IMG/VR virus record: IMGVR_UViG_3300033571_010132
Span: 1 to 26,892 of that record
Origin: a virus
Direction: 5' to 3' (one strand)
DNA length: 26,892 nucleotides
Shown here: one piece after another, positions 841 to 18,550 of the stretch
Numbering within the stretch: the first letter of the stretch is position 1
How the letters are laid out: each line of letters starts with the position of its first letter
The notes under the pieces: model-generated
Told to the model about the DNA's origin: nothing
What the model saw: only the letters and a program-made list of their open reading frames with translations
The model's database searches: none
Made by a program: the position numbers and the translations under genes

Positions 841-854
841 CAGGAGTATTTGAC

Positions 855-1232
855 ATGGCAACTTATTTGGGATTTTCTACCGATAGTAAATTTAAAAACT
901 TCAAAGTCACTGATTTTGAACTGGCAGTTGAGGATTTACTTAATCATTTCAACATCAGACTTGGCGAAAAGCTCATGAATCCTAAATTTGGTTGTGTGGT
1001 TTGGGATATGTTGTTTGAAAATTTTACTGATGAAGTTAGAATATTGGTCATGGACAACATTGGCGAAATTGTCGATGCTGAACCACGTTTGAATTTAAAC
1101 GATATCAGCGTAGAAGAATATGATCAAGGACTGCAAGTAAACTTAGAACTAGAGTACATAGAAACATCAATGGCTACCAATCTCAGTGTGTTCTTTGATC
1201 AAAACAGTGACAAAATTTATGTCGCAGGGTAA
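855..1232 (+). CDS. 25: Baseplate wedge protein gp25
   Basis: This 125-residue protein has the length and signature of the gp25/GPW family: an N-terminal strand-rich segment, then RLGEKLMNPKFGCVVWDMLFE-type sequence at residues 36-55, and EPRLNLNDISV at 76-86. In T4, gp25 sits in the wedge core near the sheath attachment site and helps start sheath polymerisation; despite its old 'lysozyme' label it is structural. A clear Shine-Dalgarno sequence (CAGGAGT, 841-847) precedes the ATG, and the start follows the hub/lysozyme stop by 14 bases, so the two are probably co-transcribed. gp6 follows after a 57-base gap that contains a late-promoter-like box. Family assignment is secure by motif and context. 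Confidence 0.93.
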   Translation: MATYLGFSTDSKFKNFKVTDFELAVEDLLNHFNIRLGEKLMNPKFGCVVWDMLFENFTDEVRILVMDNIGEIVDAEPRLNLNDISVEEYDQGLQVNLELEYIETSMATNLSVFFDQNSDKIYVAG

Positions 1233-1257
1233 GTTAAATACGTTGATAACGATAACC

Positions 1258-1265
1258 CATAAATA
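1258..1265 (+). promoter_or_regulatory. Late-promoter-like box (CATAAATA)
   Basis: CATAAATA lies in the 57-base gap between gp25 and gp6 and ends 24 bases before the gp6 ATG. It matches the T4 late promoter (TATAAATA) and the NATAAATA form described for T4-like cyanophages, and the spacing leaves room for a short leader. The same seven-base core recurs in three other gaps of this window. Confidence 0.6.
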
Positions 1266-1289
1266 TTTGATACCTACCTTGGAACAATA

Positions 1290-4200
1290 ATGGCTAGCTC
1301 ATCTCGACAGCAATCACTACTAGTAGCTGAAGATTGGAAAAAACTGTATCAGACTTTTAGACAGGCTGATTTCCAAAGTTTCGACTTTGAAACCTTGCGT
1401 AAGAGCATGATAGACTATTTGAAGCTGTATCAGTATGAAGATTTCAACGATTTTATTGAAAGCAGCGAGTATGTTGCACTGATTGACTTGATTGCCTTTT
1501 TAGGGCAAAGCATTGCGTTTAGAGCAGATCTAAATGCACGTGAAAACTTTATCGACACTGCTGAGCGTAGAGACAGCATATTAAAGCTGGCTAGGCTAAT
1601 CAGCTATAGCCCTAAACGCAATAGTCCAGCCCAAGGTTATTTAAAAATTCAAGCTGTTTCTACCACAGAGATTTTAACAGATTCAGCTGGTAATAATTTA
1701 TCAAACCAGGTAATCAACTGGGCGGACTCCAATAACGACAATTGGCAAGAACAGTTTAATACCATATTCAATGCTGCCATGGTCTCAACCCAGCGCATAG
1801 GTAACCCTGCAGCAAAGACCACACTGGGGTCAGTTAACTATCAGCAATACCAACTGCTACTACCCACTGGTACAGCGCCAGTTTATACATTTTCTTCTAT
1901 TGTGCAGAGTATTAGCACCAAATTTGAAATTGTGGGCACTACAATTGAGGACGGTGTACTACGTGAATCGTATCCGTCAACTCGTGGAGTATTTGATCTA
2001 CTTTACAAAAACGACGGGCAAGGCACACAATCCAACAATACTGGGTTTTTTGTAAGATTTACACAAGGGCAGTTATTAAGTCAGGATTTTAATATTCCTG
2101 AAAGTATAAGCAACAGAATTGTACCAGTTGATACTTTTAATATTAATGAATTTGATGTATGGTTGTTTGATGTTGATTCTACTGGTGCTAGCAATACGCT
2201 ATGGAAAAGTGTACCTGCAGTAGCCAATAGCAATATTGTGTACAATACATCTGGTACTTTTACTAAAAAGGCCTATCAAATCACTAGTAGGAACAATGAT
2301 CAAATTGATTTGAATTTTGGTGATGGAAATTTTGCACAGATACCTGTGGGCAATTTTAGGGTTTACTACAGAGTTTCCAATGGACTTACCTACAAAATTT
2401 TACCCATAGACATTGTAAGAATACCTATTGTTATTAACTATACAAGTAGAACTAACCAAATTGAGACTCTTACTATATCGGTTAGTTTAACAACACCGGT
2501 AACTAATGCCAGTGCTAGAGAGACTATTGAGGAAATTCGCCAACGGGCTCCACAACAGTACTATACACAAAACCGCATGGTCAATGGGGAAGACTATAAT
2601 ATTTTTCCTTATACCAAATTTGCAAACATTGTCAAATCTAAATCAGTTAATAGAACCAGCAGTGGTATAAGTCGATATCTTGATGTTATCGACGTTACTG
2701 GCAAGCATTCCACAACTAATATTTTTGGCGATGACGTTATACTTTATGCAGACAGTACTGTAGACTCGTTTACATTTGAATATGCGACTGATGCTGAAGT
2801 TGCAAATATGATAAGTTCACGGCTGAACCCCATAATGGCCAGTCGAAACATGCTGCATTTTTATTACGCTAACTTTAGCCGAGCTAGTTCTTCACTGGTG
2901 TGGAATCAAAGTACGTTTGGCACAAATCAATCTACTGGATACTTTAGACGCCTAGGACAAAGCCAACCCGAGCCAATTGGGGCAAAATATTCTAATACAA
3001 TAGTAAACGGTACGCTGATTAAATTTGCTGCTCCTACTGGCAAGTATTTTGATCTTGACAATAATCTAGTAACAGGTACACCAAATCTTGCAATTGGGCA
3101 TAGACTTCATATATTTTCTACAGTTGTGACCTTGATTGATGATGGCACTAATTCAGGCCAAGGTAATTTTGCCGACGGTACAGGTCCGGTGTCTTTAAAT
3201 GAAAAAATACCCAGTGAGGCAATCATTGCTGAATTTATTCCAGTCTGGAAAAACAGTTTTACTGCTGATGTTGTCACCAGCATTATCGCAAATGTGCGAA
3301 ACAAAAAAACGTTTGGACTAGGATTTGATTCAAGAAACAGTATATGGTTTGTGACCTCTACGCTACTATCCGGCACCACTGTGTTTAACGAATCAACTAA
3401 TCCTTGGTTATTTAAATTTGACTATGCATCAAACGTGTACACTGTGTCTTATAGATCTTTAAAATACATAGTAGAAAGTGCATTGCAAACTCGTTTTTAC
3501 TTTGACTCAAGACTAAAGATTTTTGATTCAAAAACTGGACAATTGGTAGTTGATCAAGTTAAAATTTTAAAAGCCAACTCTCAGCCTGACAGCGGACTCC
3601 CTTATTCGCAAGACCAAATTTGCTATGTGATTTCACAAGTTGTAGAGTCTGATGGCTATGTTGACACTACTAAAATTGAAGTATCATATGCAGACACTGA
3701 CAATGATGGTGTACCTGATGATCCAGACTTTTTTGAAAACATTGTATTTTCAAAATCTACCAGTGATGTATCTGGATTAGTTACTCGTGCCAATTCAGCA
3801 CGGGGATATATAAAAACATCGTTGGTTTTTTATAAAAAAAGCACAGACCAATATGCGTATGTGCGCTGGACACCAATAGCTAAAGGAGTAGTGCTTATCT
3901 ATGCAACAAAAGCAGCTATTGAGGCAGTAAAAAATCAATACACAGTTGGGCAGCTTTTTTATTCAACTGGTACTAGTGCGATATACCAATCTGTTCTAAA
4001 TGCATCCAATGCTATTGTATTAAACGACGTAACTGTGGACTACTTGATTCGTGAAGGACGCCAAAACTTATTTTTCCAATACAAACATAATAGCCCGCAC
4101 ACTAGAAGAATAGATCCTAGCCCAATCAATATTATTGATTTGTATGTATTAACCAAACAATATGATAATGATTATCGTTTATGGGCTCAAGACAGCACAG

Positions 4201-4694
4201 GCATGACCGATAAACCAACTCCGCCAACGTCAGAAGAGCTAGCAGCAAGTTACAGTGATCTAGACGAATACAAAATGACCAGCGATACTATAATTTTTAA
4301 TACCGCTAGATACAAACCTATTTTTGGAGCCGATGCCGCTCCATCACTGCGAGCTGTTTTCAAAGTTGTTAAAAATCAAAATACTTTGGCCAGTGACGCT
4401 GAAGTGCGGTCAAGTTTGATTTCAGCAGTGAATACGTATTTTGCAATTGAAAATTGGGACTTTGGTGAAACATTTTACTTTAGTGAAATGGTTGCGTATT
4501 TGCATCAACGATTAGCTACTATTGCAAGCAGCATAGTAATTGTGCCAGCCCAATTGAGTCAAAAATACGGAGAGCTGCAACAAATTAATGCTGAGCCCGA
4601 TGAGATTTTAATCAGTACTGCTCGTGTTGAGGATGTTACAATTATTTCTTCAATCACTGCCGTTCAATTAAATTCACTTCCATCTAGCACTTAA
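1290..4694 (+). CDS. 6: Baseplate wedge protein gp6, enlarged form
   Basis: The N-terminus (residues 1-110) carries the gp6 pattern: a helical segment with YEDFNDFIESSEYVALID, then AFRADLNARENFIDTAERRDS and LARLISYSPKR. A MVNGEDYNIFPY segment at 430-441 matches the DY motif of baseplate J/gp6 proteins. Residues about 945-975 (NIIDLYVLTKQYDNDYR) and 1047-1090 (ENWDFGETFYFSEMVAYLHQRL) match the C-terminal assembly part. In T4, gp6 dimers form the inner baseplate ring. At 1134 residues it is far longer than T4 gp6 (660); the extra length lies in the middle, where residues 802-813 read DTDNDGVPDDPD, a TSP3-like calcium-binding pattern. No strong Shine-Dalgarno precedes the ATG. Identity is firm; the role of the insertion is unknown. 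Confidence 0.9.
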   Translation: MASSSRQQSLLVAEDWKKLYQTFRQADFQSFDFETLRKSMIDYLKLYQYEDFNDFIESSEYVALIDLIAFLGQSIAFRADLNARENFIDTAERRDSILKLARLISYSPKRNSPAQGYLKIQAVSTTEILTDSAGNNLSNQVINWADSNNDNWQEQFNTIFNAAMVSTQRIGNPAAKTTLGSVNYQQYQLLLPTGTAPVYTFSSIVQSISTKFEIVGTTIEDGVLRESYPSTRGVFDLLYKNDGQGTQSNNTGFFVRFTQGQLLSQDFNIPESISNRIVPVDTFNINEFDVWLFDVDSTGASNTLWKSVPAVANSNIVYNTSGTFTKKAYQITSRNNDQIDLNFGDGNFAQIPVGNFRVYYRVSNGLTYKILPIDIVRIPIVINYTSRTNQIETLTISVSLTTPVTNASARETIEEIRQRAPQQYYTQNRMVNGEDYNIFPYTKFANIVKSKSVNRTSSGISRYLDVIDVTGKHSTTNIFGDDVILYADSTVDSFTFEYATDAEVANMISSRLNPIMASRNMLHFYYANFSRASSSLVWNQSTFGTNQSTGYFRRLGQSQPEPIGAKYSNTIVNGTLIKFAAPTGKYFDLDNNLVTGTPNLAIGHRLHIFSTVVTLIDDGTNSGQGNFADGTGPVSLNEKIPSEAIIAEFIPVWKNSFTADVVTSIIANVRNKKTFGLGFDSRNSIWFVTSTLLSGTTVFNESTNPWLFKFDYASNVYTVSYRSLKYIVESALQTRFYFDSRLKIFDSKTGQLVVDQVKILKANSQPDSGLPYSQDQICYVISQVVESDGYVDTTKIEVSYADTDNDGVPDDPDFFENIVFSKSTSDVSGLVTRANSARGYIKTSLVFYKKSTDQYAYVRWTPIAKGVVLIYATKAAIEAVKNQYTVGQLFYSTGTSAIYQSVLNASNAIVLNDVTVDYLIREGRQNLFFQYKHNSPHTRRIDPSPINIIDLYVLTKQYDNDYRLWAQDSTGMTDKPTPPTSEELAASYSDLDEYKMTSDTIIFNTARYKPIFGADAAPSLRAVFKVVKNQNTLASDAEVRSSLISAVNTYFAIENWDFGETFYFSEMVAYLHQRLATIASSIVIVPAQLSQKYGELQQINAEPDEILISTARVEDVTIISSITAVQLNSLPSST

Positions 4695-4696
4695 TT

Positions 4697-7600
4697 ATGG
4701 CTCAAAAGAAAACCACAAACTTACTACCACGTAAGTTTAGAACTAGCGCAAACACAAAATTTCTTAATAGCGTAGTTGAGCCATTAATTTCTGAGCCTGA
4801 ATTAAGACGAATTGATGGTTATATTGGTCAACATCTAACTAGATCTTATCGTGTTGGCGATGGATACGTACAGGAAGATTCTTCAGCACGCCAACACTAT
4901 CAATTTGAACCCACGCTGATAGTTAAAGATGTTACTACAGAGAAAACTAAATTAACTGTTGGTTATACCGAGCTGATTGACAAATTGCGTTATTTAGGTA
5001 ATACAGTAACAAACGAAAGTTTGTTATTTGAACAGCCTTACTATAATTATCATGGAAATTTTGACATTGACAAATTTGTTAACTACGCTCAATATTATTG
5101 GGTGTCGGGCAGATTGCCGCCAGTAATTATTACAGACACAAATACTATTGACATTGTTAGTGATATTTTATCCAACTCTACTTACACAAGTGCAAACAAC
5201 GTAGTTTTTACCAATGGACTACTGGTTAAATTTAGGACACTAACAGAACCTGCAAGTTATCAAAATCAAACTTACTATGTAGAAGGGGTAGGCTCTGGTA
5301 TTAAATTAGTAAACATTAACTCTCTAATAACACCTGAACCTTTTGTAACCTACGTTCCTGCTCCGTACGATATATTTCCTTATGATGTTGATGGTTATGA
5401 TGTAAATCTAAATGATCCACAATATCCTGAATATTTTGTTATTAACAGAGCCGATCAATCACTTAATGCATGGGCTAGGTGTAATAGATGGATGCACATA
5501 GATGTCTTACGAGCATTTGAAAATTATCAAAATAGTCAAATTGACTTGTCAAAGTATGCTAGAGCTACCAGGCCCATAATTGAGTTCAACGCCGACATTG
5601 CACTATTTAATCACGGTGTTAATTTTTATGGTATGGTTGATCTAATAGACACAACCACAACCGATCCGCTCAGTGACGCTAACTATACTGGGGTAGAAAA
5701 CTCAACTATTGCTAAACTAATAGACACTGTACCGGTACAAAACAGCTATAGAATAATTTTTACTGCAGCATTAGATCCCGATGTAAAAAATAAAATCTAT
5801 ACTGCACGTATTGGTAACTTTGGCAGTGACGGTGCTGCTAGAATTAGCTTAACAGCAACTACAACTCCCTTACTTGATAATTCTAGTTTATTGGTAAAAC
5901 AAGGGGCAAATAAAGGGCGTACTTTTGTTTATAGAAACAGTGTGTGGAGTCTAGCACAACAAAAAACTCGAGTAAATCAGCCACCACTGTTTGATTTATT
6001 TGACACAGACGGCAACAGCTATTCTGATACTGCTTATTACCCTGCAAGCACATTTTCAGGTACTCTGCTATTTTCTTACAAGTCCGGTACAGGGACCACA
6101 GACCCGGTGCTAGATATGGCACTGTCTTATCGCAATATTGGCAATATTGGTGACATTCAATTTGAAGATTTTATAACCACCGGCACGTTTAGTTATCTAG
6201 GAAACAGTAGCATGTCTACTGAAGCAGGCCAAATTAAAATTGCTGGGGAACTAACCAGTAACTGGTTACCAATAGTACAAAATTCTTTTCAACGACAAAT
6301 TTTTGAATTTGTAGTTACAAATACCGATCCTTATATTATTGACATTGTTCCTAAAAATCAAAAACAATCAATAGAAATTAATGTCAATGGTAGATTTTTA
6401 AATAGAGACGAGTTTACTTACAATACTGTTACTCGTGCAATATCTTTTGTCACAGATTTAACTGTGGGCGATTTTGTTAGTGTATTGGTTCACAGTGATC
6501 AAGTGTCCAGCACTGCTTACTTTGAACTACCGTTAAATTTAATCAACAACAGTGATAATCAAGATATTTCAACAGTAACACTAGGCCAATTGAGAAACCA
6601 CTTTGTTTCCCAATACAGAAATTATCTTGGAGCCGATAACTCATTTCCAGGAACATTATCTGTTCGTGATTTTCCCGCAAGTTCACGTGTGAACGGCACT
6701 ATTTTACAACACAGTTCTCCAGTAGCACCGGCGATGTTTTTTTTAACTAGCAGTGATTTTGATTTTGTTGCTAGCGTCGAACAAGCCCGTACTGCCTACA
6801 GTTTTTTCAAGAAACGGTTTTTAGATGCTGTGTCAACATTAGGTGATTTAGATTTTGACGACATACCTGCAGCAGTAGATACTGCATTAGACTACATTAA
6901 TCAAAACAAGTCGCCAGACATGCCTTATTACTATAGCGATATGGTACCAACAGGCAGCGAAGTTTCTAAAACTACATATACGGTACTTAATACAGCCCAA
7001 GAAAGTTATGGCATTGAGTCAATATTTGACAGCACCGTGCCGTCGGGACGAGCAGTATTGGTTTATTGTAACAATGTTCAATTGGTTCAAGGTCGAGACT
7101 ACGACTTTGACACTGCTAGGCCTGGCATTAAAATGTTGACCACACTGCCTTACAATTCAACTTTAGAAATACGTGACTATGCATCCACTGATGGTTGCTA
7201 TATTCCTGAGACCCCTACAAAAATGGGACTTTGGCCATCTGCAATACCTGAAATAACAGTTGATAACAGTTTTCGCAATGAACAAACTGTAGTTGTTGGA
7301 CACGACGGCAGTAGAACTATTGTGTTTGGTGACATGCGTGATAACATGGTACTAGAATTAGAATTGAGAATTTACAATAATATCAAACGTCAATTTGATA
7401 CTGCTAAGTTGGATTCGCGTGAAATTGTTCCTGGAGCATTTAGATCAACCGGGTTCACTATTGATCAAATCAATGCAGTACTAGCTCCTTATTATTATAG
7501 ATGGAAAGACGAAAACAATCTCAACATTGAATCAGCTAGTTTTTTTAAAAACAGCGACGCTTGGACTTGGAACTACTACAATCAATTAGCCAAAGACAAT

Positions 7601-8059
7601 TCTCGTCTTACAGGATCGTGGTCCACAGTATTTCGTTATTGGTATGACACAGCAGAACCCAGTACTAGACCTTGGGAAATGCTAGGCTATAGTTCTAAAC
7701 CTGCTTGGTGGAACGGCAAGTATGGCCCTGCCCCGTATACCGCTGGTAATACCATATTATGGGATGACATACGTGATGGTGTACAGACTGACAACGATGG
7801 TACAACACACATTAACCGCTTGTCTGCTAGACCTAACATTTACAGCTATTTGCCAGTTGACGACCAAGGTCAACTGCGTACACCTTTAGATATATTTGTC
7901 AAAGTGTTTAATGGAGCGATAACCAACACTGTTTATGTTTTTGGTATGGGTGACCCTGTAGAAAACAGTTGGCGTCGCAGTAGCGACTACCCGTTTGCTT
8001 CACAAATAGCTATGGCCGTACTAAAACCAGCAAAATATTTTGCTCAGTTCGCATCATGA
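4697..8059 (+). CDS. Large virion structural protein, probably baseplate-associated (gp7 position)
   Basis: This protein of 1120 residues starts two bases after the gp6 stop, so it is probably translated from the same message. The N-terminus (LLPRKFRTSANTKFLNSVVEP at about 9-29, then IDGYIG) and residues 90-138, rich in Tyr and Asn (NYHGNFDIDKFVNYAQYYW), read as a conserved head domain. The C-terminal part (about 973-1028) is strikingly aromatic, with RPWEMLGYSSKPAWW and NGKYGPAPYTAGNTILWDD. I know these motifs from large structural proteins of marine T4-like phages but not from a protein of solved function. There is no signal peptide or membrane segment. Its position after gp6 corresponds to T4 gene 7, so a wedge or wedge-to-fibre role is inferred. 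Homology to T4 gp7 itself is not shown by anything visible here. Confidence 0.75.
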   Translation: MAQKKTTNLLPRKFRTSANTKFLNSVVEPLISEPELRRIDGYIGQHLTRSYRVGDGYVQEDSSARQHYQFEPTLIVKDVTTEKTKLTVGYTELIDKLRYLGNTVTNESLLFEQPYYNYHGNFDIDKFVNYAQYYWVSGRLPPVIITDTNTIDIVSDILSNSTYTSANNVVFTNGLLVKFRTLTEPASYQNQTYYVEGVGSGIKLVNINSLITPEPFVTYVPAPYDIFPYDVDGYDVNLNDPQYPEYFVINRADQSLNAWARCNRWMHIDVLRAFENYQNSQIDLSKYARATRPIIEFNADIALFNHGVNFYGMVDLIDTTTTDPLSDANYTGVENSTIAKLIDTVPVQNSYRIIFTAALDPDVKNKIYTARIGNFGSDGAARISLTATTTPLLDNSSLLVKQGANKGRTFVYRNSVWSLAQQKTRVNQPPLFDLFDTDGNSYSDTAYYPASTFSGTLLFSYKSGTGTTDPVLDMALSYRNIGNIGDIQFEDFITTGTFSYLGNSSMSTEAGQIKIAGELTSNWLPIVQNSFQRQIFEFVVTNTDPYIIDIVPKNQKQSIEINVNGRFLNRDEFTYNTVTRAISFVTDLTVGDFVSVLVHSDQVSSTAYFELPLNLINNSDNQDISTVTLGQLRNHFVSQYRNYLGADNSFPGTLSVRDFPASSRVNGTILQHSSPVAPAMFFLTSSDFDFVASVEQARTAYSFFKKRFLDAVSTLGDLDFDDIPAAVDTALDYINQNKSPDMPYYYSDMVPTGSEVSKTTYTVLNTAQESYGIESIFDSTVPSGRAVLVYCNNVQLVQGRDYDFDTARPGIKMLTTLPYNSTLEIRDYASTDGCYIPETPTKMGLWPSAIPEITVDNSFRNEQTVVVGHDGSRTIVFGDMRDNMVLELELRIYNNIKRQFDTAKLDSREIVPGAFRSTGFTIDQINAVLAPYYYRWKDENNLNIESASFFKNSDAWTWNYYNQLAKDNSRLTGSWSTVFRYWYDTAEPSTRPWEMLGYSSKPAWWNGKYGPAPYTAGNTILWDDIRDGVQTDNDGTTHINRLSARPNIYSYLPVDDQGQLRTPLDIFVKVFNGAITNTVYVFGMGDPVENSWRRSSDYPFASQIAMAVLKPAKYFAQFAS

Positions 8060-8072
8060 GCGATTTAGCTCA
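8057..8072 (+). terminator. Small hairpin at the end of the 1120-residue gene (weak terminator candidate)
   Basis: TGAGC at 8057-8061 pairs with GCTCA at 8068-8072 around a six-base loop. The stem includes the stop codon of the upstream gene. It is only 5 bp with no U-tract directly after, and the AATAAATA box follows at once. It may reduce read-through or be chance. Confidence 0.25.
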
Positions 8073-8080
8073 AATAAATA
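8073..8080 (+). promoter_or_regulatory. Late-promoter-like box (AATAAATA)
   Basis: AATAAATA sits in the 47-base gap between the two giant structural genes and ends 26 bases before the ATG at 8107. It has the same core and almost the same spacing as the box before gp6, making a late promoter for the 2398-residue gene plausible. The surrounding TTTAATAATATTA is strongly AT-rich, which would favour melting but also raises the chance of a fortuitous match. Confidence 0.6.
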
Positions 8081-8106
8081 TTTAATAATATTAGGCTTTT
8101 GTCAGT

Positions 8107-11100
8107 ATGGCTTTGAAAAATTTTCGCAAGTCCAGCGTTGTAGTTAACGGTGAAACTAACTCAACAGGTGCAGTTTCGCGAGCTGCAGGATATGTCAATT
8201 GGATAGCTGACAATTTAAGAAAAAATTTCCAAGCTACCGGCACAATTACCAAATCACTTGCAAAAACCAGTATTCAACTCAGTTATCCTCTTGGCGGGTA
8301 TTCAACTAAACGCTATCTAACTGTGATTGGTGAACAAAGCTCTCCAGCAGCAACCAGTAACGGTATACTGATTCCCGAAGATGATTATGAAATATTTTTG
8401 CATAAAAGTCAACCCGTTGCACAAATTGTCTACAGTGCCGTAGTAGTTAAAAAAACCAATTTGGGCTACAGTGTATCTGGATACAATACTGCTCGCCCGT
8501 ATTTTACTATAATTCCCTCAGTTATTTCAAATAACAGCTATTCAATTTCAGTGGACGGTGTTGGGGCTGTAGTTTACAACGACTATGAATCTTACACTGT
8601 AGATCTTGCTTACAATACTGAGTTTACTACTATTCAACAGGTTGTAGATTTTTTAATAAGCTATCAACGCTATTTGACCTCAACGGGCGTACTTTTTGTT
8701 GATACTTCGCCAACGCTCAAAGAAATGTTGAATTTCACATTAAGTGCCAAGGAGTTTTTAACTTGGCATCTACAAGGGTGGAAAGAAAACAACCTCATTG
8801 TGTTAAGTCCTGTAGCCGACACATTAAAAGTTAATTTATCTAATGGCACTACAGACCGTATACAGCATAACAAACTATATAGTCGAGTGTTGGATCAGAA
8901 CTTTAATATAGTTGAAAATAAAGATATTGATGTAAATCGTTTTGATAACTTTACTTCGATATTTTGTAAACGAGTAACAACTATTGGCTTGGTAGTTTTA
9001 GACGTAGTTGAGTATGAACACCAAATTATTTTTAACAATGTAACTCAATTCAACGATATTATATATCAGCCTGAGCTAGGTAATAGACAGTCAAGATTAA
9101 AAATTTCAGGGATAAAAACTGACAATTGGTTGGGCACTTTAGACGTTCCCGGGTTTATTATTAATATTGCTGATGTTAATAATTGGTCAGCTGACCAAGT
9201 ATATTCTGTTGGTGACATTGTCAAATACAAAGTTTTTTATTATGTAGCTTTAGAAAACAATACTGGATTAACTTTTAATTCTAGTGTTTGGCAACAAATA
9301 GATTATAATCAAATCAATCAAACTCTACTACCAAATCTTTCTACATTGGCCACAATGAGTCGAGATTATTATGATGCCAATAGTTTAAATTTAAACGAAT
9401 CTATTGACAGCCATGCTCGTGGATTGATCGGCTTTAGATCTCGGCCGTATTTTAATGAGTTGGGAATTGATTCAGTAAGCCAAACTAAATTTTACCAAGG
9501 TTTTATACGAAACAAAGGTACAGTGCCATCTTTGTCGGTTTTAAAGCACGTTAATTTTGGAAAACTAACAAATACTGTTGACATTTACGAAGATTGGGCA
9601 TTTAGAGTTGGTGAATACGGTGGCACTGACGTTAATCAGTTTATTGAAATTGCTCTTGAGGAAGCAGTCTTTTCAGCCAATCCCGGGATTGGAGAATTTG
9701 TTGACACTCCCAATAATAGTACTACTCAGCAAATCACTGTTTCCAGTTTGTATAAAAAGCCCTTTAATTTTACTGCGCTTGACATTGCAGAAGACTATCT
9801 AGAGTATCGTGAAGACTCAATTCGCAGTGCTGGATATGTTGATCCTGATGATGTTAATGCTAGTATTTTTGACATACAAGATCTATCATCCAACAACTTG
9901 TTGTCTGAAGTATACCCCGGCTATGTGTTTTGGTGTGCCTTGGATTATACCAGGACCTGGAATGTTTTCAGGGTGTCTGACACTGGGTTAACTTTTAAAG
10001 AAGTTAGCAACATGCTGGACCAACTGCTAATGATTGAGTTTAAAGACATACATCAGTTAGTGCCTGGCGATATTGTAGCTGTTAAAAATTTCAGTACGCT
10101 TATTGATGGCTTTTATCAAGTTGACTCAACGCCTACAATAGATTCTATTATAGTTGTTAGTAATAAAAATTTACAAGGGTTTACGTCTACTACTGGCACT
10201 GGTGTATTTTACAAAATGGTACCCTTGCGCTATTCTAACATTGAGGATAGTGTCAAGTTCACCCCGCAAAACAATTGGCGTGAAAACGAAAAAATTTGGA
10301 TCGACAATTACAGTGATTCTAAAAAATGGGCAGTTTTAGAAAAACACTCGCCTTGGAACTTTGAAGAAAACAAGTCATTGTATTCAACAGAGGCATTGTT
10401 AACTGGTTTTGGTGGCTCGCTAGCAACAGAAAGTACTGGTACTTATGTAATATCAGGTACCAATAGTAAAAAAGTATTTGTTTATAAGCGAAATAGCAAC
10501 ACTGGCAATTATGCTGTTCATCAAACTTTAACAAATGCCTACACTGGTAATATCAGCTTTGGGGCAAATGTTGACTATGTTAATTCTATACTAGCTGTTG
10601 GAGATCTAGGATTTGCTAGTTCTGGGGCAGTTATACTGTACCAAAAAAACAGCACAACAGATCAATTTGAACCCGGACAGTTTATTGCCCCAGTGCTGGG
10701 AAATACTTCAAAATTTGGATTTTCTTTTGTTCTAAGCACAAACTACTTAATAGTGGGTGCACCTGGTATTAATACCATTTACATCTATAAAAGAGAAAGT
10801 CAAACTGCGTACTCTTTGGCTGTGCCAACTCCTGGTTCTACAATAAGTATGCAGATTGTTCCTACAGCAGCAAATTCTATTATACTAATAACTGCTGCTG
10901 GCACTATTATTTCTCCAAGAACATATACTGTATCAGGATCAACTATTACATTTAGTGTAGTACCCACTACTGCTTACACCATATATCAACGCAGCTATTA
11001 TTTTAGAGAAGCTCAAATTATCAATGATAAAAGTGTTAGTGGACTTACCGATTTCTTTGGCTACAGTCTCGATATAAATGCCACAGAAGACAAAATTTAT

Positions 11101-14100
11101 GTTGGCGCTCCCTACGCAGATGTTAGAAACGAAACAACGCAAAAGGATACTGTCAATGCGGGGCGAGTAGTTGCTTATCATTTGTACAGCGGGTATTTTC
11201 AGTTTATGCAGAGAATTGAGCCTACAATACCTGAAGTCAACGGGGAATTTGGTTCTGCAGTTAAAGCCAGCAGCGACGGCTGTTCGGTATTTGTAGGAGC
11301 ACCAGGTGTTAGTTTTGTTGACACATATAGATCTGGTCAGTTGTACAGATTTGTTAACTTAGGGCGAACTGTGGGTACTGTGTCTACAGTGCCAATAACT
11401 GGAAATTTAATTGCAGCTGGCACTATTGTTATTAATGGTGTTGAAGTTTTAGTTAGTGGCAGTATTGAAAATGTTAAATCCCAAATCGACGCTGCTAGTA
11501 TACCCTATATCAGTACTTCCGTTTCCAACTCAATTTTAACTATTAGTTCAAGTTCGTTAATTGAGTTTGATAAATTAAACATTTTACCGGGACTTTCTGT
11601 TAGGCCAAAACTTGATGACCCGTTCGTTGAATTGGGACTAGCTGTTTTCACCGAACAGCAAGTCATTCCAAATCCAATTAATAGAAACCTCAGTAGATTT
11701 GGAGAAGAACTAGATTTAAGCAACAACAATATGCAGTTGTTTGTTTCTTCTCCACACGCTACAACTATATTAGATACAATTTTTGATGACGAAACTTGTT
11801 ATTTTGATTCAGCTGCAACTATATTCCGTGATCAAGAAATTGACAGTGGTAGTGTTTGTGTATTTGAATTTATTAAGCCACTTGTACCTACATTGACTAA
11901 TTCAGGTAGTTATATTTTTGGTCAACAGTTGGAATCGGCTGCTGTTAGTCCTGGAGATTTATTTGGTTCGTCTCTAGCTGTTGCTAACGAAACAGTGTTT
12001 GTAGGTGCACCTGGTGACGATATACTTCACGGCACTGACAATCGCGGCCGTATCCAATTGTTTAGCAATCCTGGCATTGACTCACTATGGAGCCCAATAA
12101 AAACTGCTGCTCCATTGATCAACGTAGACAAAATTAATCAAGTATACCTTTATAATAAAAAGACTGGTATTATATCGTCAATGCTGGACGTTGTTGATCC
12201 TATCAAAGGTAGAATTCTAGGAATCGCTAGACAAGACATAGATTTTATATCATCGCAAGATCCTGCGGCATACAATAGAAGCAGTGGCCTTGACCTATTG
12301 GGCGATGCTCGTGTAAACGACAATAATTATTGGGCTGAAAAATATGTAGGACGCTATTGGCTTGACACTAGTCAAATTAGATTTGTGGACTACGAGCAGC
12401 AAGATGTAGATTATAGAAAAAATCATTGGAATCGGTTGTTTGACGGTAGTGCAGTGCATGTATATCAATGGATCAGTTCTGACGTACTACCTAGTTTTTA
12501 CAGTAATTATTACCGTGGTGACCCTAAATATCTTGAAGACCAGTCATATGTCGTGGATTACATCATTGACAAAAACACCGGTGGATCACGAGCAAGATAT
12601 TATTTTTGGGTTAGGGATTACAATCTAATTCCTGACAACAAAGGGCTAAGTACCACGGCTATTGAAGAACTTATAGAAAATCCCAAAGCCTCAACGATTC
12701 CTTATATTGTATTTTATTCACCTACTGCTTTTGGGTTATATAACACTGACAGTTATATCGATGGCGAAAATACTGTTTTGCATATTGATTACGATCAACA
12801 ACCAAACGACAGCGTTATACATGCAGAGTATGAGCTGGTACAAGAAAATAATAGCACCAGCAATCCTCCATCAAGAATCCTTAAAAAATTCATTGACAGT
12901 TTAGCTGGGATTGATTCTATAAACAATCCAGTACCGGATCCAGCTCTTAAAGTATCTGAACGTTACGGACTAGATATTAGACCTAGACAAACACTGTTAA
13001 TTGATCGCACAGCAGCACTTGAGGTTTTAGTTAACCAGGCTAATGCTGTGTTAGCTCATTTATTTGCTGCTGAACGCATTGTCGGGACTGACTTTTTCTA
13101 CACGCAAGGAACACAGGACGCTAGAAACTTTTGGCGTTATGCGGCATGGACCGCTGAAGGGTATGATACCACAACCAAGCCGCAATACACTGTTGCTAAA
13201 TTTGCTGATATTCAAAAAAGAAATTATGCTGTTGGTACCATAATAAAAGTAACCAACAATGGCGATCGCTATGCTATTGTAAAAACAACTGCCGATGGGT
13301 TTGATCTTCAAGCGCAAGAGCGTGGTACTATTGAGTTATTGCCTGCAATTTATCAAACTGCTACTACACAAACTGCAGTTAGAAAAGTTATAGAAAGTTT
13401 ATTCTACGATTTGTTGATTGAAGACTATGCGGTATACGCTAATAAATTATTTTTTGTTCTAGTTAAGTATGCATTGCGCGAGCAAAAATACATTGACTGG
13501 GCATTTAAAACCAGTTTCTTAACTATTAATCACGACGTAACTCAGTTTGAGCAATGGCCTAACTATCAGCCGGATAACTCTACATACTTAATTGACTATA
13601 TTAGCGAAGCTAAACCTTATCATACTAAGATACGTGAATATCGCCCCAAATATAATGGAATTACTACAGCAGGCGTAGCAGCCACTGACTTTGATCTGCC
13701 AGCATACTATGATGCCGATCTTGGAGTATTTAGATCGCCGTCGGGAGAAACTGTTGGTGATTCTAGTCTTTGGGCTAGCCAACCAGAATACCAAGAATGG
13801 TACAACAATTATAAATTGGTTTTAGCTTCTGTAAGTATCAGCATTGCTGGTACTGGATATTATACTCCACCAACTATAACTATTACTGGTGGCGGTGGCA
13901 CAGGGGCAACTGCTCGAGCAGTGGTCAGTGGAGGATCTATTGTAAGAGTGGTTGTAGTTAATCCCGGGGCTAATTATACTAGTACACCTACTGTAACTTT
14001 GGCTAGAGCAGGCATTGATCGACAATTAAATGTCCAGTTAGTTGCCGCAGCACTAACAGACAAAATTTCAGGAAAACCTGTTGACACTGTATTAAATGCA

Positions 14101-15303
14101 GCATTTGATACTGTGGTTGGCGGATTTAAACTTGGTGATTTAACCAATAGTGGCATTATAACTAAAGATGACGTTGATCTTTTAAAAACTTACATTACCA
14201 ATACTTTGACTGGACCTGAATTGACCACAGTCAACACAAAATTAACTGCTATTCAAAATTATGTAATAGCCAACAACGGAACCAACAATTTAAACGTTGA
14301 TGCTGTATTGTCCGCTAAATTAAGCAACTCGTCAACTAGAACAATGTTTACACACTTATTGTTTGATCGTATTGCTTATACTGCAACCAATACTGACGTT
14401 GGGTTTGATTTGCAGTTGTTTGACGAGGACACTTTTGACGACGTTAATCCCGAAGCTGCTTACCAAAATGCACTGGATCGAGCTAGACAATACTATACCA
14501 GTAACCCTGGATCAGCAGGCCTTGACTACGCTCAATTGTTTTCTGGTATAGAATTTCCTGGATATAATGTTCAGGGTATTGGGTACACTGTTGGTAGTGG
14601 GTTTGACTCGTATGCTTATGAATCCGAAAACCCACCAGTGGGCTACAGCGGAACAGGAGATCAAAACAATCTAGCCGATATGATTTTGCAAGGGTCCTAC
14701 AAGGATCTACTACTGGGAACTCGCGCAGAGGATATTGTGTTTGATGGCGGGAAATTTATTGATCCTGCACACAGTCATGCTCCTGAGGAAATGGTTCCGG
14801 GCATTGTATTTGACACACTGGAGATTAGAGTATTCCATAAATTTGCAGGGTCTAATAGACCAAACGTAACATTCAGAATGTTTAAAAACCTAATTGACCA
14901 GTACAGTTACTATAGAATGAGTGCAACAAATTCCACTAGACTGAGGCAGCCGTTGTTGATTGGCGACACTGAAATTTCTGTCGTGTCAGCTGCGGAACTA
15001 GACCTTCCAAGCCCGAATAGTGCTACCCCTGGTGTTATATTCATTAAGGGCGAACGTATTACTTATTTTGAAAGAGACACTGTCAATAATAAACTGCGTC
15101 GTATTCGTCGAGGTACTGCTGGCACAGGGGCCGCAGCAGTATATGCTAGTGATACAGTAGTTGTTGGATCGGGCGCTAGTCAAATATTAGCCGATGCACA
15201 CACTACAGTATGGTACGATCCCCAAATTGGACTTGAAAACTCTACAACAGACATAGCTAAATTCTTAAAAGACCAGGATCATCCACCGGTGTCTGTAACC
15301 TGA
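8107..15303 (+). CDS. Giant multidomain virion protein with FG-GAP beta-propeller and carbohydrate-binding-like modules
   Basis: This 2398-residue protein is the largest gene in the window. Visible parts in order: a conserved head (1-340); a segment with the W..Y..GD.V.Y...YY.A pattern of small carbohydrate-binding modules (about 358-399); ARGLIGFRSRPY and SQTKFYQGFI motifs (about 440-465); seven FG-GAP-like units (about 765-1310, first residues near 768, 818, 869, 983, 1048, 1198 and 1286), of which four carry VGAP; a helical part with RYGLDIRPRQ and, near 1835, EAKPYHTKI; a GYYTPP glycine-rich beta module (about 1909-1966); a dockerin-like loop (2011-2022, GDLTNSGIITKDD); and a C-terminal beta module (about 2275-2360). 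The motifs recur in large aquatic-phage structural proteins. I infer a baseplate-periphery or fibre-network protein that may bind surface glycans. No enzyme active site is apparent. Confidence 0.8.
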   Translation: MALKNFRKSSVVVNGETNSTGAVSRAAGYVNWIADNLRKNFQATGTITKSLAKTSIQLSYPLGGYSTKRYLTVIGEQSSPAATSNGILIPEDDYEIFLHKSQPVAQIVYSAVVVKKTNLGYSVSGYNTARPYFTIIPSVISNNSYSISVDGVGAVVYNDYESYTVDLAYNTEFTTIQQVVDFLISYQRYLTSTGVLFVDTSPTLKEMLNFTLSAKEFLTWHLQGWKENNLIVLSPVADTLKVNLSNGTTDRIQHNKLYSRVLDQNFNIVENKDIDVNRFDNFTSIFCKRVTTIGLVVLDVVEYEHQIIFNNVTQFNDIIYQPELGNRQSRLKISGIKTDNWLGTLDVPGFIINIADVNNWSADQVYSVGDIVKYKVFYYVALENNTGLTFNSSVWQQIDYNQINQTLLPNLSTLATMSRDYYDANSLNLNESIDSHARGLIGFRSRPYFNELGIDSVSQTKFYQGFIRNKGTVPSLSVLKHVNFGKLTNTVDIYEDWAFRVGEYGGTDVNQFIEIALEEAVFSANPGIGEFVDTPNNSTTQQITVSSLYKKPFNFTALDIAEDYLEYREDSIRSAGYVDPDDVNASIFDIQDLSSNNLLSEVYPGYVFWCALDYTRTWNVFRVSDTGLTFKEVSNMLDQLLMIEFKDIHQLVPGDIVAVKNFSTLIDGFYQVDSTPTIDSIIVVSNKNLQGFTSTTGTGVFYKMVPLRYSNIEDSVKFTPQNNWRENEKIWIDNYSDSKKWAVLEKHSPWNFEENKSLYSTEALLTGFGGSLATESTGTYVISGTNSKKVFVYKRNSNTGNYAVHQTLTNAYTGNISFGANVDYVNSILAVGDLGFASSGAVILYQKNSTTDQFEPGQFIAPVLGNTSKFGFSFVLSTNYLIVGAPGINTIYIYKRESQTAYSLAVPTPGSTISMQIVPTAANSIILITAAGTIISPRTYTVSGSTITFSVVPTTAYTIYQRSYYFREAQIINDKSVSGLTDFFGYSLDINATEDKIYVGAPYADVRNETTQKDTVNAGRVVAYHLYSGYFQFMQRIEPTIPEVNGEFGSAVKASSDGCSVFVGAPGVSFVDTYRSGQLYRFVNLGRTVGTVSTVPITGNLIAAGTIVINGVEVLVSGSIENVKSQIDAASIPYISTSVSNSILTISSSSLIEFDKLNILPGLSVRPKLDDPFVELGLAVFTEQQVIPNPINRNLSRFGEELDLSNNNMQLFVSSPHATTILDTIFDDETCYFDSAATIFRDQEIDSGSVCVFEFIKPLVPTLTNSGSYIFGQQLESAAVSPGDLFGSSLAVANETVFVGAPGDDILHGTDNRGRIQLFSNPGIDSLWSPIKTAAPLINVDKINQVYLYNKKTGIISSMLDVVDPIKGRILGIARQDIDFISSQDPAAYNRSSGLDLLGDARVNDNNYWAEKYVGRYWLDTSQIRFVDYEQQDVDYRKNHWNRLFDGSAVHVYQWISSDVLPSFYSNYYRGDPKYLEDQSYVVDYIIDKNTGGSRARYYFWVRDYNLIPDNKGLSTTAIEELIENPKASTIPYIVFYSPTAFGLYNTDSYIDGENTVLHIDYDQQPNDSVIHAEYELVQENNSTSNPPSRILKKFIDSLAGIDSINNPVPDPALKVSERYGLDIRPRQTLLIDRTAALEVLVNQANAVLAHLFAAERIVGTDFFYTQGTQDARNFWRYAAWTAEGYDTTTKPQYTVAKFADIQKRNYAVGTIIKVTNNGDRYAIVKTTADGFDLQAQERGTIELLPAIYQTATTQTAVRKVIESLFYDLLIEDYAVYANKLFFVLVKYALREQKYIDWAFKTSFLTINHDVTQFEQWPNYQPDNSTYLIDYISEAKPYHTKIREYRPKYNGITTAGVAATDFDLPAYYDADLGVFRSPSGETVGDSSLWASQPEYQEWYNNYKLVLASVSISIAGTGYYTPPTITITGGGGTGATARAVVSGGSIVRVVVVNPGANYTSTPTVTLARAGIDRQLNVQLVAAALTDKISGKPVDTVLNAAFDTVVGGFKLGDLTNSGIITKDDVDLLKTYITNTLTGPELTTVNTKLTAIQNYVIANNGTNNLNVDAVLSAKLSNSSTRTMFTHLLFDRIAYTATNTDVGFDLQLFDEDTFDDVNPEAAYQNALDRARQYYTSNPGSAGLDYAQLFSGIEFPGYNVQGIGYTVGSGFDSYAYESENPPVGYSGTGDQNNLADMILQGSYKDLLLGTRAEDIVFDGGKFIDPAHSHAPEEMVPGIVFDTLEIRVFHKFAGSNRPNVTFRMFKNLIDQYSYYRMSATNSTRLRQPLLIGDTEISVVSAAELDLPSPNSATPGVIFIKGERITYFERDTVNNKLRRIRRGTAGTGAAAVYASDTVVVGSGASQILADAHTTVWYDPQIGLENSTTDIAKFLKDQDHPPVSVT

Positions 15304-15314: not shown

Positions 15315-15944
15315 ATGAAACCCACACAAGATTCCCTATTTGATCAAAGCGGCATTTATGCTGAAGGGCATATCAAAATTTTTGACCCTGCCAGTCAGGA
15401 AGTATTCGTTGATAAACGAAATGCTATTCATTTTGAAAATTTCAGTGAAGCAATGGCACTGAGCTTGGCTCACAAAGGAACTGGATTTATACACGAATTG
15501 CATTTAGGCAATGGTGGTACTAGTGTGGATCCCACTGGGGTTATAACTTATTTGCCTCCCAATACCAATGGCTCGACTACGGACTTATACAACAAGACCT
15601 ACTACAAAGTAGTTGACGCTACTAGTGCTTATAACACTGATACTAACAAAAACTATATGACTGTAAGGCATATCCCTGGTAAAGTCTATTCCGATATTGT
15701 AGTAACTACTACTCTAGAGTATGGGGAACCTACTGATCAAGCAGTTTTTGACAATTCGGTTAATCTAGATAACATTTATGTGTTTGACGAGTTGGGATTA
15801 AAGTCCTGGGGAGGAGCTCCTGGAACCGGTAAGTTGTTGACGCATGTTATTTTTCACCCAGTTCAAAAAAGTCTTAATCGATTAATTCAAATTGATTATA
15901 CTATTAGAATACAATCATTAACTAACCTTACTAGCCAACTATGA
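15315..15944 (+). CDS. Virion structural protein upstream of the fibre cluster, function unknown
   Basis: A 209-residue protein with no enzyme motif, signal peptide or membrane segment. Its first half (GHIKIFDPASQEVFVDKRNAI, about 18-38, then FENFSEAMALSLAH and IHELHLGNGGTSVDPTG) and second half (IYVFDELGLKS, LTHVIFHPVQKSLNR, IQIDYTIRIQ) are strand-rich. They resemble small structural proteins found next to fibre genes in aquatic T4-like phages. It starts 11 bases after the giant structural gene, and its stop overlaps the next start (ATGA at 15941-15944), so it is translationally coupled to the first fibre. That placement suggests an adaptor between baseplate and fibres, but this is inference. 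Confidence 0.65.
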   Translation: MKPTQDSLFDQSGIYAEGHIKIFDPASQEVFVDKRNAIHFENFSEAMALSLAHKGTGFIHELHLGNGGTSVDPTGVITYLPPNTNGSTTDLYNKTYYKVVDATSAYNTDTNKNYMTVRHIPGKVYSDIVVTTTLEYGEPTDQAVFDNSVNLDNIYVFDELGLKSWGGAPGTGKLLTHVIFHPVQKSLNRLIQIDYTIRIQSLTNLTSQL

Positions 15945-18550
15945 GTTATCTCCTCGATAAAACCAACAATTCAAGTTCTAAGATCACCGTTGAAGATGGT
16001 ACTATAGATAATACTTCTACTTCTTTGACTATGATTGGGAGGGCCTATAATGGTTGGGGTGAAGCGGTTAACGAAAACTTTTTAGCACTTTTAGAAAATT
16101 TTGCTAGTACTAGCAGCCCACGCAATGCTGTAACCGGGCAACTATGGTATGACACAGGCAATGCATGCCTTAAATATTTTGATGGTACTACACACAATAC
16201 ATTAGCAGTATATCCTACACTTAGCGAAGGATTTTTATACAATAACAGTTCAAATGTTAAGTCGTGGGTCAGTGTTTTCCCCAGTAACGCTACCGATGGA
16301 GTAAATTCTTACTTGCAAAGAACTACTACCGGTGCACTAATCTGGGTTTCCGGTACGTCATTGTTTACTGATGCATTGCCCGCCGGGAGTGGACTTTTAA
16401 CAAAAAATACCAATGGTACTTATGGTTTTACAGCAGCGTACACATTGCCCACTGCTAGTACATCTGTACTAGGTGGAGTCAAAGTTGACGGGACCACTAT
16501 TAGTATTAACAGCGGAGTTATCAGTGCTGTTAGCAGTGGCGGCGGCAGTTCATTACCTGGCAACGCTACAGGTTATTTGTACAACAACGGCACTGGTACA
16601 CTGAGTTGGGGTACGCTTTCGGGCGGAAGTGGTGGCTCATCGTCCGTAGACGTACAAACATTTAACAGCACCGGCACTTGGACCAAGCCAAGTGGATACG
16701 CTATGGCGCGTATTCAAGTGTGGGGTGGTGGGGCAGGTGGCGGCAAAGGTGCAGCTGGTCGTGGTGGCGGTGGTGGCGGTTATAACGAAACTACAGTTCC
16801 TTTATCTTATTTGGCTTCAACGGTAACCATAACCGTTGGGGCAGGGGGACTTGGCAGAACCGGGACTGCAGGCAATGGTGGCAATGGTGGAACAAGCAGT
16901 GTCCCATTTTTGACCGCGTTGACCAATGGGTCAACCGCAATTTATGCTTATGGTGGGTCTGCTTATTTGCCTGGTCAATACAATTTAGGTGGCGGACAAT
17001 TAGGAATTAACAATCCCTCTCCGGCAAATGTTAGCGGGTTTCTTATCTCCCCATTATGGAATGGTGGTGCTGGCGGTGAGTCCGCCAATGGATGCTGTGG
17101 AACCGCTGGTTTTGCAGGGACTGGCGCAGTTTTTGGTGGCGGTGGCGGCGGTGGCCAATCATTTGCTGGTGGTGCTAGTGTTTACGGCGGAGCAGGTGGC
17201 GGTGTTGGCGGAGCGAATGGCATAAATGGTAACGCACCTGCCGGGGGAGGGATGGGCAGTACTGGTGTAACCGATGGCGGAAACGGCGCCGCCGGCCGAG
17301 TGGTTATTACTTGTTGGGGTGGGGGAGGAGGATCTAGTCTTCCTAGTCAGACTGGCAATAATGGCAAGTATCTAACCACTGATGGCAGTGCATTGAGTTG
17401 GGACACCCCTGCTGGTAGTAGTACCGGTGGATTTGCCCAATTTGGGCTATGGTATAAATCTACCGCTGGCACAGAAACGTTTACAGTGCCGGCAGGAGTA
17501 ACACTGCTTCGTGTTGCTATAAGTTCGGCATATGTTGTCGGGTCTGCAGTAGCTTATGGTTGGGTTACAGTGACCCCAGGGCAAACAATATCTGTAACAG
17601 TTGGTGACGGCGTCTCAGGCACCGCGGGAATATCAACTACTCCTGTTAACAATGGGCTGAGTAGTTTTGGCACTTATTTAACTGCTTCTCTCGTCCCAGC
17701 GGGCGGGGCAAGCTATTCGTTTAGCACCGGTGGCACAGCGAAGGTGTCAGATTATGATATTGGGATGGCCAATTATATTAGAAAGGTGACTGGTGGCGGT
17801 ATCCTTACAGTTGATATTACTAGCAGTATTCCAGCAGTTCAAAATCAATCGTGGACTGGGGACACTCGTTATGATGGTTGGGTTATAGTAGAATATGGCG
17901 TCGGTGCCAGTGGTGGCGGCTCATCAGCCGCAGAAGTTCAAACATTTAACAGCACAGGTACTTGGACCAAGCCTAGTGGATGTAAAATGGCGCGTATACA
18001 ATTGTGGGGCGGTGGTGGGGGCGGAAGCCGCGGATCTAGCGCCATTGGCGGCGCGGGTGGATCATATAACGAAATTATAGTTCCCCTTTCTTATCTAGCA
18101 GATACAGTTCCAGCAATTGTAGGTGCCGGTGGAGCAGTTTCTACAGTCGTTGGATATGGTAGTCAAGGCGGCGGCGGTACTTCCTCGTCTTTTGCATTAG
18201 CAACTCCTGTTAATGGTATGTCTACTGTGTATGGATATGGCGGAGGAGGTGGCTCTGGCCCTCCTCCTTCCCCATTCTTCAATCTTGGGGATAATGGCTG
18301 GAAGGGTGGTGCGGGCGGAACTTATGACACAGGGGATGCCGTTCCTGCTGGGTCATCAATTTTTGGAGGCGGGGGCGGCGGCAATGGACTTAGTATCGAT
18401 CCCGGGGGAACTAGTCTTTACGGTGGAGCAGGGGGAAGTAGCATAGGATACCCCTCTACAGCAAATTTTAACGGACGTGTACCAGGGGGAGGCGGAGTAG
18501 CCAACGGTGGAAATGGCGCCGCCGGCCTTATCATTGTTACTTGTTATTAA
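15941..18550 (+). CDS. Tail fibre protein 1 with duplicated glycine-rich domains
   Basis: An 869-residue protein. Residues 1-82 form the module shared with the other two fibres: a DKT/DGT start, IGRAYNGWGEAVNENFLALLEN, then a TGQLWYDT motif. A GATGYLYNNG-like stretch (about 205-225) recurs in fibre 2. Two homologous glycine-rich domains follow, at about 238-465 and 666-869. Each opens with VQTFNSTGTWTKPSG, then MARIQ.WGGG, poly-Gly segments and a closing strand ending ITC or VTC. Between them, residues 490-650 (TFTVPAGVTLLRV, GWVTVTPGQTISVTVGDG) have the same strand plan without the glycines. Such Gly-rich domains are common at phage fibre tips, where polyglycine II-type packing can present surface loops. 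Receptor binding is inferred. The start overlaps the previous stop. Confidence 0.85.
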   Translation: MSYLLDKTNNSSSKITVEDGTIDNTSTSLTMIGRAYNGWGEAVNENFLALLENFASTSSPRNAVTGQLWYDTGNACLKYFDGTTHNTLAVYPTLSEGFLYNNSSNVKSWVSVFPSNATDGVNSYLQRTTTGALIWVSGTSLFTDALPAGSGLLTKNTNGTYGFTAAYTLPTASTSVLGGVKVDGTTISINSGVISAVSSGGGSSLPGNATGYLYNNGTGTLSWGTLSGGSGGSSSVDVQTFNSTGTWTKPSGYAMARIQVWGGGAGGGKGAAGRGGGGGGYNETTVPLSYLASTVTITVGAGGLGRTGTAGNGGNGGTSSVPFLTALTNGSTAIYAYGGSAYLPGQYNLGGGQLGINNPSPANVSGFLISPLWNGGAGGESANGCCGTAGFAGTGAVFGGGGGGGQSFAGGASVYGGAGGGVGGANGINGNAPAGGGMGSTGVTDGGNGAAGRVVITCWGGGGGSSLPSQTGNNGKYLTTDGSALSWDTPAGSSTGGFAQFGLWYKSTAGTETFTVPAGVTLLRVAISSAYVVGSAVAYGWVTVTPGQTISVTVGDGVSGTAGISTTPVNNGLSSFGTYLTASLVPAGGASYSFSTGGTAKVSDYDIGMANYIRKVTGGGILTVDITSSIPAVQNQSWTGDTRYDGWVIVEYGVGASGGGSSAAEVQTFNSTGTWTKPSGCKMARIQLWGGGGGGSRGSSAIGGAGGSYNEIIVPLSYLADTVPAIVGAGGAVSTVVGYGSQGGGGTSSSFALATPVNGMSTVYGYGGGGGSGPPPSPFFNLGDNGWKGGAGGTYDTGDAVPAGSSIFGGGGGGNGLSIDPGGTSLYGGAGGSSIGYPSTANFNGRVPGGGGVANGGNGAAGLIIVTCY
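16655..16730 (+). repeat. Direct repeat, copy 1 (start of glycine-rich domain 1)
   Basis: This stretch matches 17939-18014 with about 65 of 76 positions identical by eye, at an offset of 1284 bases and in the same reading frame. It encodes the QTFNSTGTWTKPSG through WGGG part of the domain. The DNA-level similarity indicates a recent duplication or gene conversion. Confidence 0.8.
17939..18014 (+). repeat. Direct repeat, copy 2 (start of glycine-rich domain 2)
   Basis: Partner of 16655-16730. The domain ends are also alike: GGCGCCGCCGGCC occurs near 17285 and near 18518, shortly before the matching closing strands. Recombination between the copies would delete or multiply one whole fibre-tip domain without a frameshift. 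Confidence 0.8.

Follow-up and report, generated by a model that had tools for sequence, protein, structure and literature searches.

Propellers built from FG-GAP units are already known, as are propellers in the host-recognition devices of phages (PMC4901313) and YHYH domains in baseplate proteins (PMC7824862, PMC7029224). Precedent for a propeller in a baseplate is provided by phi11 gp45 and phiKZ gp131C (PMC4901313). Here we describe a 26,892-nucleotide stretch of viral DNA (IMG/VR record IMGVR_UViG_3300033571_010132; the whole stretch is referred to below as the window), in which an open reading frame (ORF) of 2398 residues, part of a giant virion protein of jumbo myophages, carries a domain predicted to be a seven-bladed FG-GAP propeller. 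Among the open-access papers searched, a set that leaves most subscription journals outside, none was seen to describe an FG-GAP propeller in this giant protein or the hairpin that holds it as a site of exchange, and the graft site appears to be undescribed.

Compared by its description, phiKZ gp131C (Protein Data Bank (PDB) entry 4GBF) is likewise seven-bladed; it sits at the outer edge of the baseplate of a giant myophage and has been proposed to bind a receptor (PMC4901313), but it forms the C-terminal domain of gp131 and is not a hairpin insertion in a protein at the position of gp7. Phi11 gp45 is also a baseplate propeller that takes part in recognising the host (PMC4901313), and differs in having five blades, an N-terminal velcro closure and the architecture of a homotrimeric receptor-binding protein. 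The best solved match, both by profile and by fold, is the integrin-alpha propeller, which also consists of seven FG-GAP blades. Integrin propellers, however, contain calcium loops for which the window propeller has no room, whereas the latter carries two domains in loops between strands C and D and is an insertion in a phage baseplate-region protein. The phrog_10938 proteins of RaK2, GAP32, PBECO4, PA5oct and SCTP-2 are homologous to the window protein on both sides of the insertion site but lack the propeller. P-SSM2 gp7, a giant protein of 5195 residues annotated as baseplate wedge, is encoded right after gp25 and gp6, which corresponds to the gene position seen here; it has no propeller, and just a module of chitin-binding type aligns, weakly (E-value (E) 0.002). 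Finally, tail and baseplate proteins of jumbo and pelagic phages contain fused YHYH domains (PMC7824862, PMC7029224). Relatives of the window protein have such a domain at the same site, whereas the window protein itself has the propeller there.

Prediction of a seven-bladed FG-GAP propeller

AlphaFold was run on residues 723-1342 of the 2398-residue ORF together with an alignment of propeller regions. The model consists of one confident domain (mean predicted local distance difference test score 89.8; predicted template modelling score (pTM) 0.90), in which 28 blade strands form seven groups of four. When Foldseek was used to compare this model with solved structures, integrin-alpha propellers were the top matches (E 1.6e-11, whole domain length aligned), and seven-bladed WD40 rings such as CIAO1 were matched with a template modelling (TM) score of 0.75 normalised by target. 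Normalised by query, the TM score was ~0.45 for integrins, as expected given ~160 inserted residues and an identity of 12%. A separate profile search of PDB sequences also retrieved integrin-alpha chains (E 1.2e-11), and the matches in a viral structure library were uncultured tailed-phage proteins and FG-GAP proteins of giant eukaryotic viruses. The strand grouping, the pTM and the whole-length matches support a predicted ring that is closed. This is in agreement with an earlier note on this DNA, made from the sequence alone, which had proposed a closed propeller of seven units; the prediction yielded neither a fold lacking a propeller nor a series of separate beta domains. All four strands of predicted blade 7 come from the C-terminal side, and no velcro strand is apparent in the strand assignment.

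The seven units were also recognised in the sequence. Their FG residues are located at positions 768, 818, 870, 984, 1048, 1198 and 1286; the earlier note had found all seven, with units 3 and 4 misplaced by one residue. It had also correctly assigned VGAP to units 3, 4, 5 and 7. The range that it gave, 10408-12020, stops short of the last two strands (C and D) of blade 7, which extend the domain to ~12105. Units 1 and 2 are without GAP, and an eighth FG (residue 1271) belongs to the D strand of blade 6 and does not mark a unit. Between residues 740 and 1330 FG occurs 8 times, compared to a mean of 2.8 in shuffled sequences, and the pattern FG...hhG has 7 matches, a number that none of 5000 shuffles of the same segment reached. 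The Pfam model FG-GAP_2 (PF14312) matched the segment with E 2e-12 (47.4 bits, cut-off 23) and the whole protein with E 9.5e-8, with a single unit above the Pfam threshold; the older FG-GAP model PF01839 gave no match. Conservation was determined in an alignment of 45 propeller regions, namely 44 relatives from the non-redundant set described below and the window. FG-GAP_2 was matched by all 45 sequences, and the seven units are in register across them, with the F/Y of each unit retained by 89-100% of the sequences and its G by 73-100%.

The two extra segments and the missing calcium loops that had been noticed in the sequence are both borne out. One segment, insert A, occupies the C-D loop of blade 3, and the other, insert B, that of blade 5 (Table 1). 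Among the relatives, designated by L numbers, these loops vary in length from 2 to 224 (blade 3) and from 5 to 252 residues (blade 5) and nearly all other loops hardly vary; the shortest propellers (L107, L110 and L120), of ~410 residues, have no large inserts. A Pfam scan gave no match for insert A and no significant match for insert B, and a resemblance of insert B to Flagellin_IN was not supported by Pfam. The DxDxDG motif of integrin-type calcium loops is absent, and since the A-B loops comprise just 2-5 residues such calcium sites cannot exist. Invariant residues are found in the long B-C loop of blade 6 (Table 1), and G1248, located just after this loop, is invariant as well.

Insertion of the propeller in a conserved hairpin

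When the 2398-residue ORF was compared by BLAST with named jumbo phages, the alignments ran to residues ~530-720 and resumed at ~1326-1349, so that ~600 residues were skipped. The propeller is bordered by the two strands of what we name the docking hairpin (Table 1), in which W741 is invariant and V743 conserved to 98% in the 45 sequences, and W1328 is 96% conserved. The boundary motif reads WxV before the insert and W..IRx..xVD after it. In L121, PA5oct, SCTP-2, Phosso and Atu_ph07 the hairpin is empty, and the two halves of the motif are contiguous. Computation thus supports that a conserved hairpin has received the propeller between its two strands.

Loss, replacement and divergence of the module

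IMG/VR contigs were scanned first for close relatives (57-73% identity) and later for distant ones (25-28%). The last scan, in which the core following the propeller was the query, gave 348 relatives; 80 were taken, of which 62 were non-redundant. In the maximum-likelihood tree of the core, 63 rows, consisting of the propeller carriers and the exceptions nested among them, unite at 100/98. One of these exceptions is L121, which nests among the propeller carriers L086, L107, L110, L120 and L124 (100/100), and because it lies inside the propeller clade its empty hairpin represents a loss. L121 is represented by one metagenomic contig, and the named phages, which have long branches, are placed with uncertainty; SCTP-2 is labelled OTHER in the tree though its hairpin is empty. 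In L051, L056, L057, L067 and L084 the hairpin holds a YHYH domain (PF14240) in place of the propeller, with E 1e-29 to 1e-32 in L051, L057 and L084 and a visible YHYH motif in L056 and L067. These five contigs, which have the YHYH domain and no propeller, form a clade (100/99) nested inside the propeller clade. In another clade, the YHYH domain is located inside blade 1 of the propeller. Computation supports, therefore, that the propeller module has been both lost and replaced within its clade.

Propeller identity was lower than core identity in 463 of 465 pairs (mean 0.31 versus 0.45). The two identities correlated at 0.86, which indicates that the propeller is mostly inherited with the core, yet changes faster.

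Some observations were made on individual relatives. A reading of the inserts of the five YHYH contigs as LamG or concanavalin-like domains was ruled out by the Pfam YHYH match or the shared YHYH motif; two of them, L051 and L056, have ~200 extra residues after the YHYH domain. L012 (7675-10692) and L013 (7684-10686) encode propellers in which the YHYH domain is inserted after strand C of blade 1. When the propeller alone was searched among named phages, just a weak match was obtained, to a protein that Sinorhizobium phage Phosso (L004) encodes separately. This phage, whose hairpin is empty, has a separate 11-kb gene for a protein (XYS97267.1) with about twenty FG-GAP-like units, possibly making up several propellers.

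Gene position of the giant protein

The 2398- and 1120-residue ORFs of the window jointly match a single giant virion protein of jumbo myophages, phrog_10938 (E 5.8e-171), which is one chain in most relatives and in RaK2, GAP32, CBB, PBECO4, PA5oct, SCTP-2, Vibrio phage 2.275.O, Phosso and Atu_ph07. In the window (break at 8050-8110) and in its nearest relative L001, two ORFs take the place of the single gene, and the C-terminal part is also encoded as its own ORF in L002 and L003. Core profiles match RaK2, PA5oct, SCTP-2, Phosso and Atu_ph07. The gp6-like protein encoded directly upstream (Table 1) matches phrog_10646 (E 1.5e-300) and has ~35% identity at ~90% coverage to annotated baseplate wedge proteins. 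Its gene is preceded by a gp25-like gene, and fibre-like genes are located downstream of the 2398-residue ORF. Also in RaK2, GAP32, CBB, PBECO4 and PA5oct the gene for the giant protein directly follows the gp6-like gene. Comparison of the gene order in the window with those of T4 and P-SSM2 places the giant gene at the position of T4 gene 7, right after gene 6. When the giant protein was compared with T4 gp7 and gp8 no homology was found, and the term "gp7-position" is therefore a statement about gene order. In cyanomyophages and pelagimyophages T4 gp7 is absent and a VrlC protein is found in its place (PMC7029224). The PHROGs database files phrog_10938 (window 4697-15303) under head and packaging; the gene position and the neighbouring genes indicate the baseplate.

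Possible role of the propeller

On balance we consider it rather probable that the domain is a closed seven-bladed FG-GAP_2 propeller which, held in the hairpin, acts as an exchangeable host-contact module in the baseplate of a jumbo-type myophage. The module is best read as non-essential and exchangeable. An antiparallel blade of four strands has its A-B and C-D loops on one face, while strand A begins and strand D ends on the opposite face, where the B-C loop is also found. By this topology the ends of the propeller, the hairpin and the conserved B-C loop of blade 6 would share one face, which may sit on the baseplate. The other face would hold the variable domains of the C-D loops as well as the YHYH insert of L012 and L013, and may point away from the baseplate and touch the host envelope. 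This outward face would then bind a glycan or a protein of the host surface during adsorption, and the propeller would be an accessory adhesion module beside the tail fibres encoded downstream. The faster divergence, the loss and the replacement of the module agree with a role in binding.

Several points weigh against this interpretation. The receptor role of the phiKZ propeller has itself been called unconfirmed (PMC4901313). Quick divergence can also occur in a decorating domain that binds nothing, and the outward face is deduced from topology. The location of the giant protein in the baseplate is suggested by gene order and homology; hhalign detected no similarity between the giant protein and T4 gp7, and an AlphaFold model of the core (pTM 0.43, partly confident) had no match among solved structures.

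It is also conceivable, though we regard it as unlikely, that the propeller serves the structure of the baseplate, touching adjacent wedges, fibres or a second layer of the baseplate and not the host. A conserved protein contact is suggested by the invariant D1227, D1234, T1238 and G1248 in or near the blade 6 loop and by the fixed lengths of most loops, and the large protein present in pelagimyophages and cyanomyophages, which are without T4 gp7, has been linked to double-layered baseplates (PMC7029224). A structural part would, however, be difficult to reconcile with its absence from L121 and the named jumbo phages, with its replacement in the YHYH clade and with a divergence faster than that of the core.

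An enzymatic domain, or a scaffold for one, acting for example on capsule or peptidoglycan, is improbable. To our knowledge FG-GAP_2 contains no known catalytic motif, and most invariant positions in the propeller are structural G, F or W, while D1227 and D1234 could equally be structural. What speaks for an enzyme is that propellers are found in phage endosialidases (PMC4901313), that the alternative occupant of the site, YHYH, is a predicted metal-dependent hydrolase (PMC7824862), and that YHYH lies inside blade 1 of some propellers. A degenerate or incomplete array of FG units that forms no single closed ring, as might be imagined from the one unit above the Pfam threshold in the window and the missing GAP of units 1 and 2, is scarcely credible in view of seven units conserved in 45 sequences, a pTM of 0.90 with 28 strands and the full-length match to seven-bladed rings.

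Host recognition in very large phages is usually sought in the tail fibres. A propeller held by one hairpin throughout a diverse clade, and exchanged or neatly lost in some of its members, indicates a different and easily testable candidate site of host contact. The ends of the hairpin are natural module boundaries, and relatives with an empty site and relatives bearing a propeller offer a natural comparison. A broader proposal, which we make tentatively, is that throughout a large jumbo-type group the giant gp7-position protein has a dedicated docking hairpin at which whole modules (propeller, YHYH, both or nothing) are gained, lost or exchanged. The hairpin would then be a second slot for host-contact modules, at a fixed position in the baseplate core and independent of the tail fibres.

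Other features of the locus

Table 1. Positions of the propeller, its hairpin and the surrounding genes in the window
Feature	Window position	Strand	Residues of 2398-residue ORF	Remarks
gp6-like baseplate wedge protein	1290..4694	+		Directly upstream of the ORFs for the giant protein
1120-residue ORF	4697..8059	+		N-terminal part of giant phrog_10938 protein, a separate gene here
2398-residue ORF	8107..15303	+		Propeller-bearing; C-terminal ~2/3 of giant phrog_10938 baseplate-region protein
Docking hairpin strand 1	10324..10344	+	740-746	KWAVLEK; kept in empty-site proteins
Blade 1	10408..10533	+	768-809	AlphaFold strands; FG column conserved
Blade 2	10558..10686	+	818-860	AlphaFold strands; FG column conserved
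Blade 3	10714..11025	+	870-973	Split by insert A; AlphaFold strands; FG column conserved
Insert A	10801..10995	+	899-963	65 residues; C-D loop of blade 3; all-beta
Blade 4	11056..11217	+	984-1037	AlphaFold strands; FG column conserved
Blade 5	11248..11670	+	1048-1188	Split by insert B; AlphaFold strands; FG column conserved
Insert B	11356..11649	+	1084-1181	98 residues; C-D loop of blade 5; alpha/beta
Blade 6	11698..11931	+	1198-1275	AlphaFold strands; FG column conserved
Blade 6 B-C loop	11752..11847	+		32 residues; D1227, D1234 and T1238 invariant
Blade 7	11962..12105	+	1286-1333	FG-GAP_2 match; AlphaFold strands
Docking hairpin strand 2	12088..12105	+	1328-1333	WSPIKT; also last, outermost strand of blade 7

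The conserved core contains a CBM5/12 module of chitin-binding type (window 9181-9291, residues 359-395 of the 2398-residue ORF). Taken alone this module is weak (Pfam E 0.74), and the family profile matches chitinase and deacetylase modules in the PDB with E 0.001-0.02; the positions of this profile reappear elsewhere in other giant proteins. In L002 the homologue of the 1120-residue ORF (74-5545) is 1823 residues long and has a C-terminal glycine-rich domain (Gly_rich_2, E 5.5e-7). Two core relatives, L128 and L129, are present on contigs binned into metagenome-assembled genomes of Pelagibacter and Porticoccaceae. These contigs are probably phage-derived, and the bins possibly hint at the host of the distant relatives. 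The three fibre-like proteins of the window (15941-18550, 19103-20635 and 20676-23072) resemble one another in an N-terminal stretch (phrog_15511/14394) but not in the remainder, where one has glycine-rich repeats and another threonine-rich runs.

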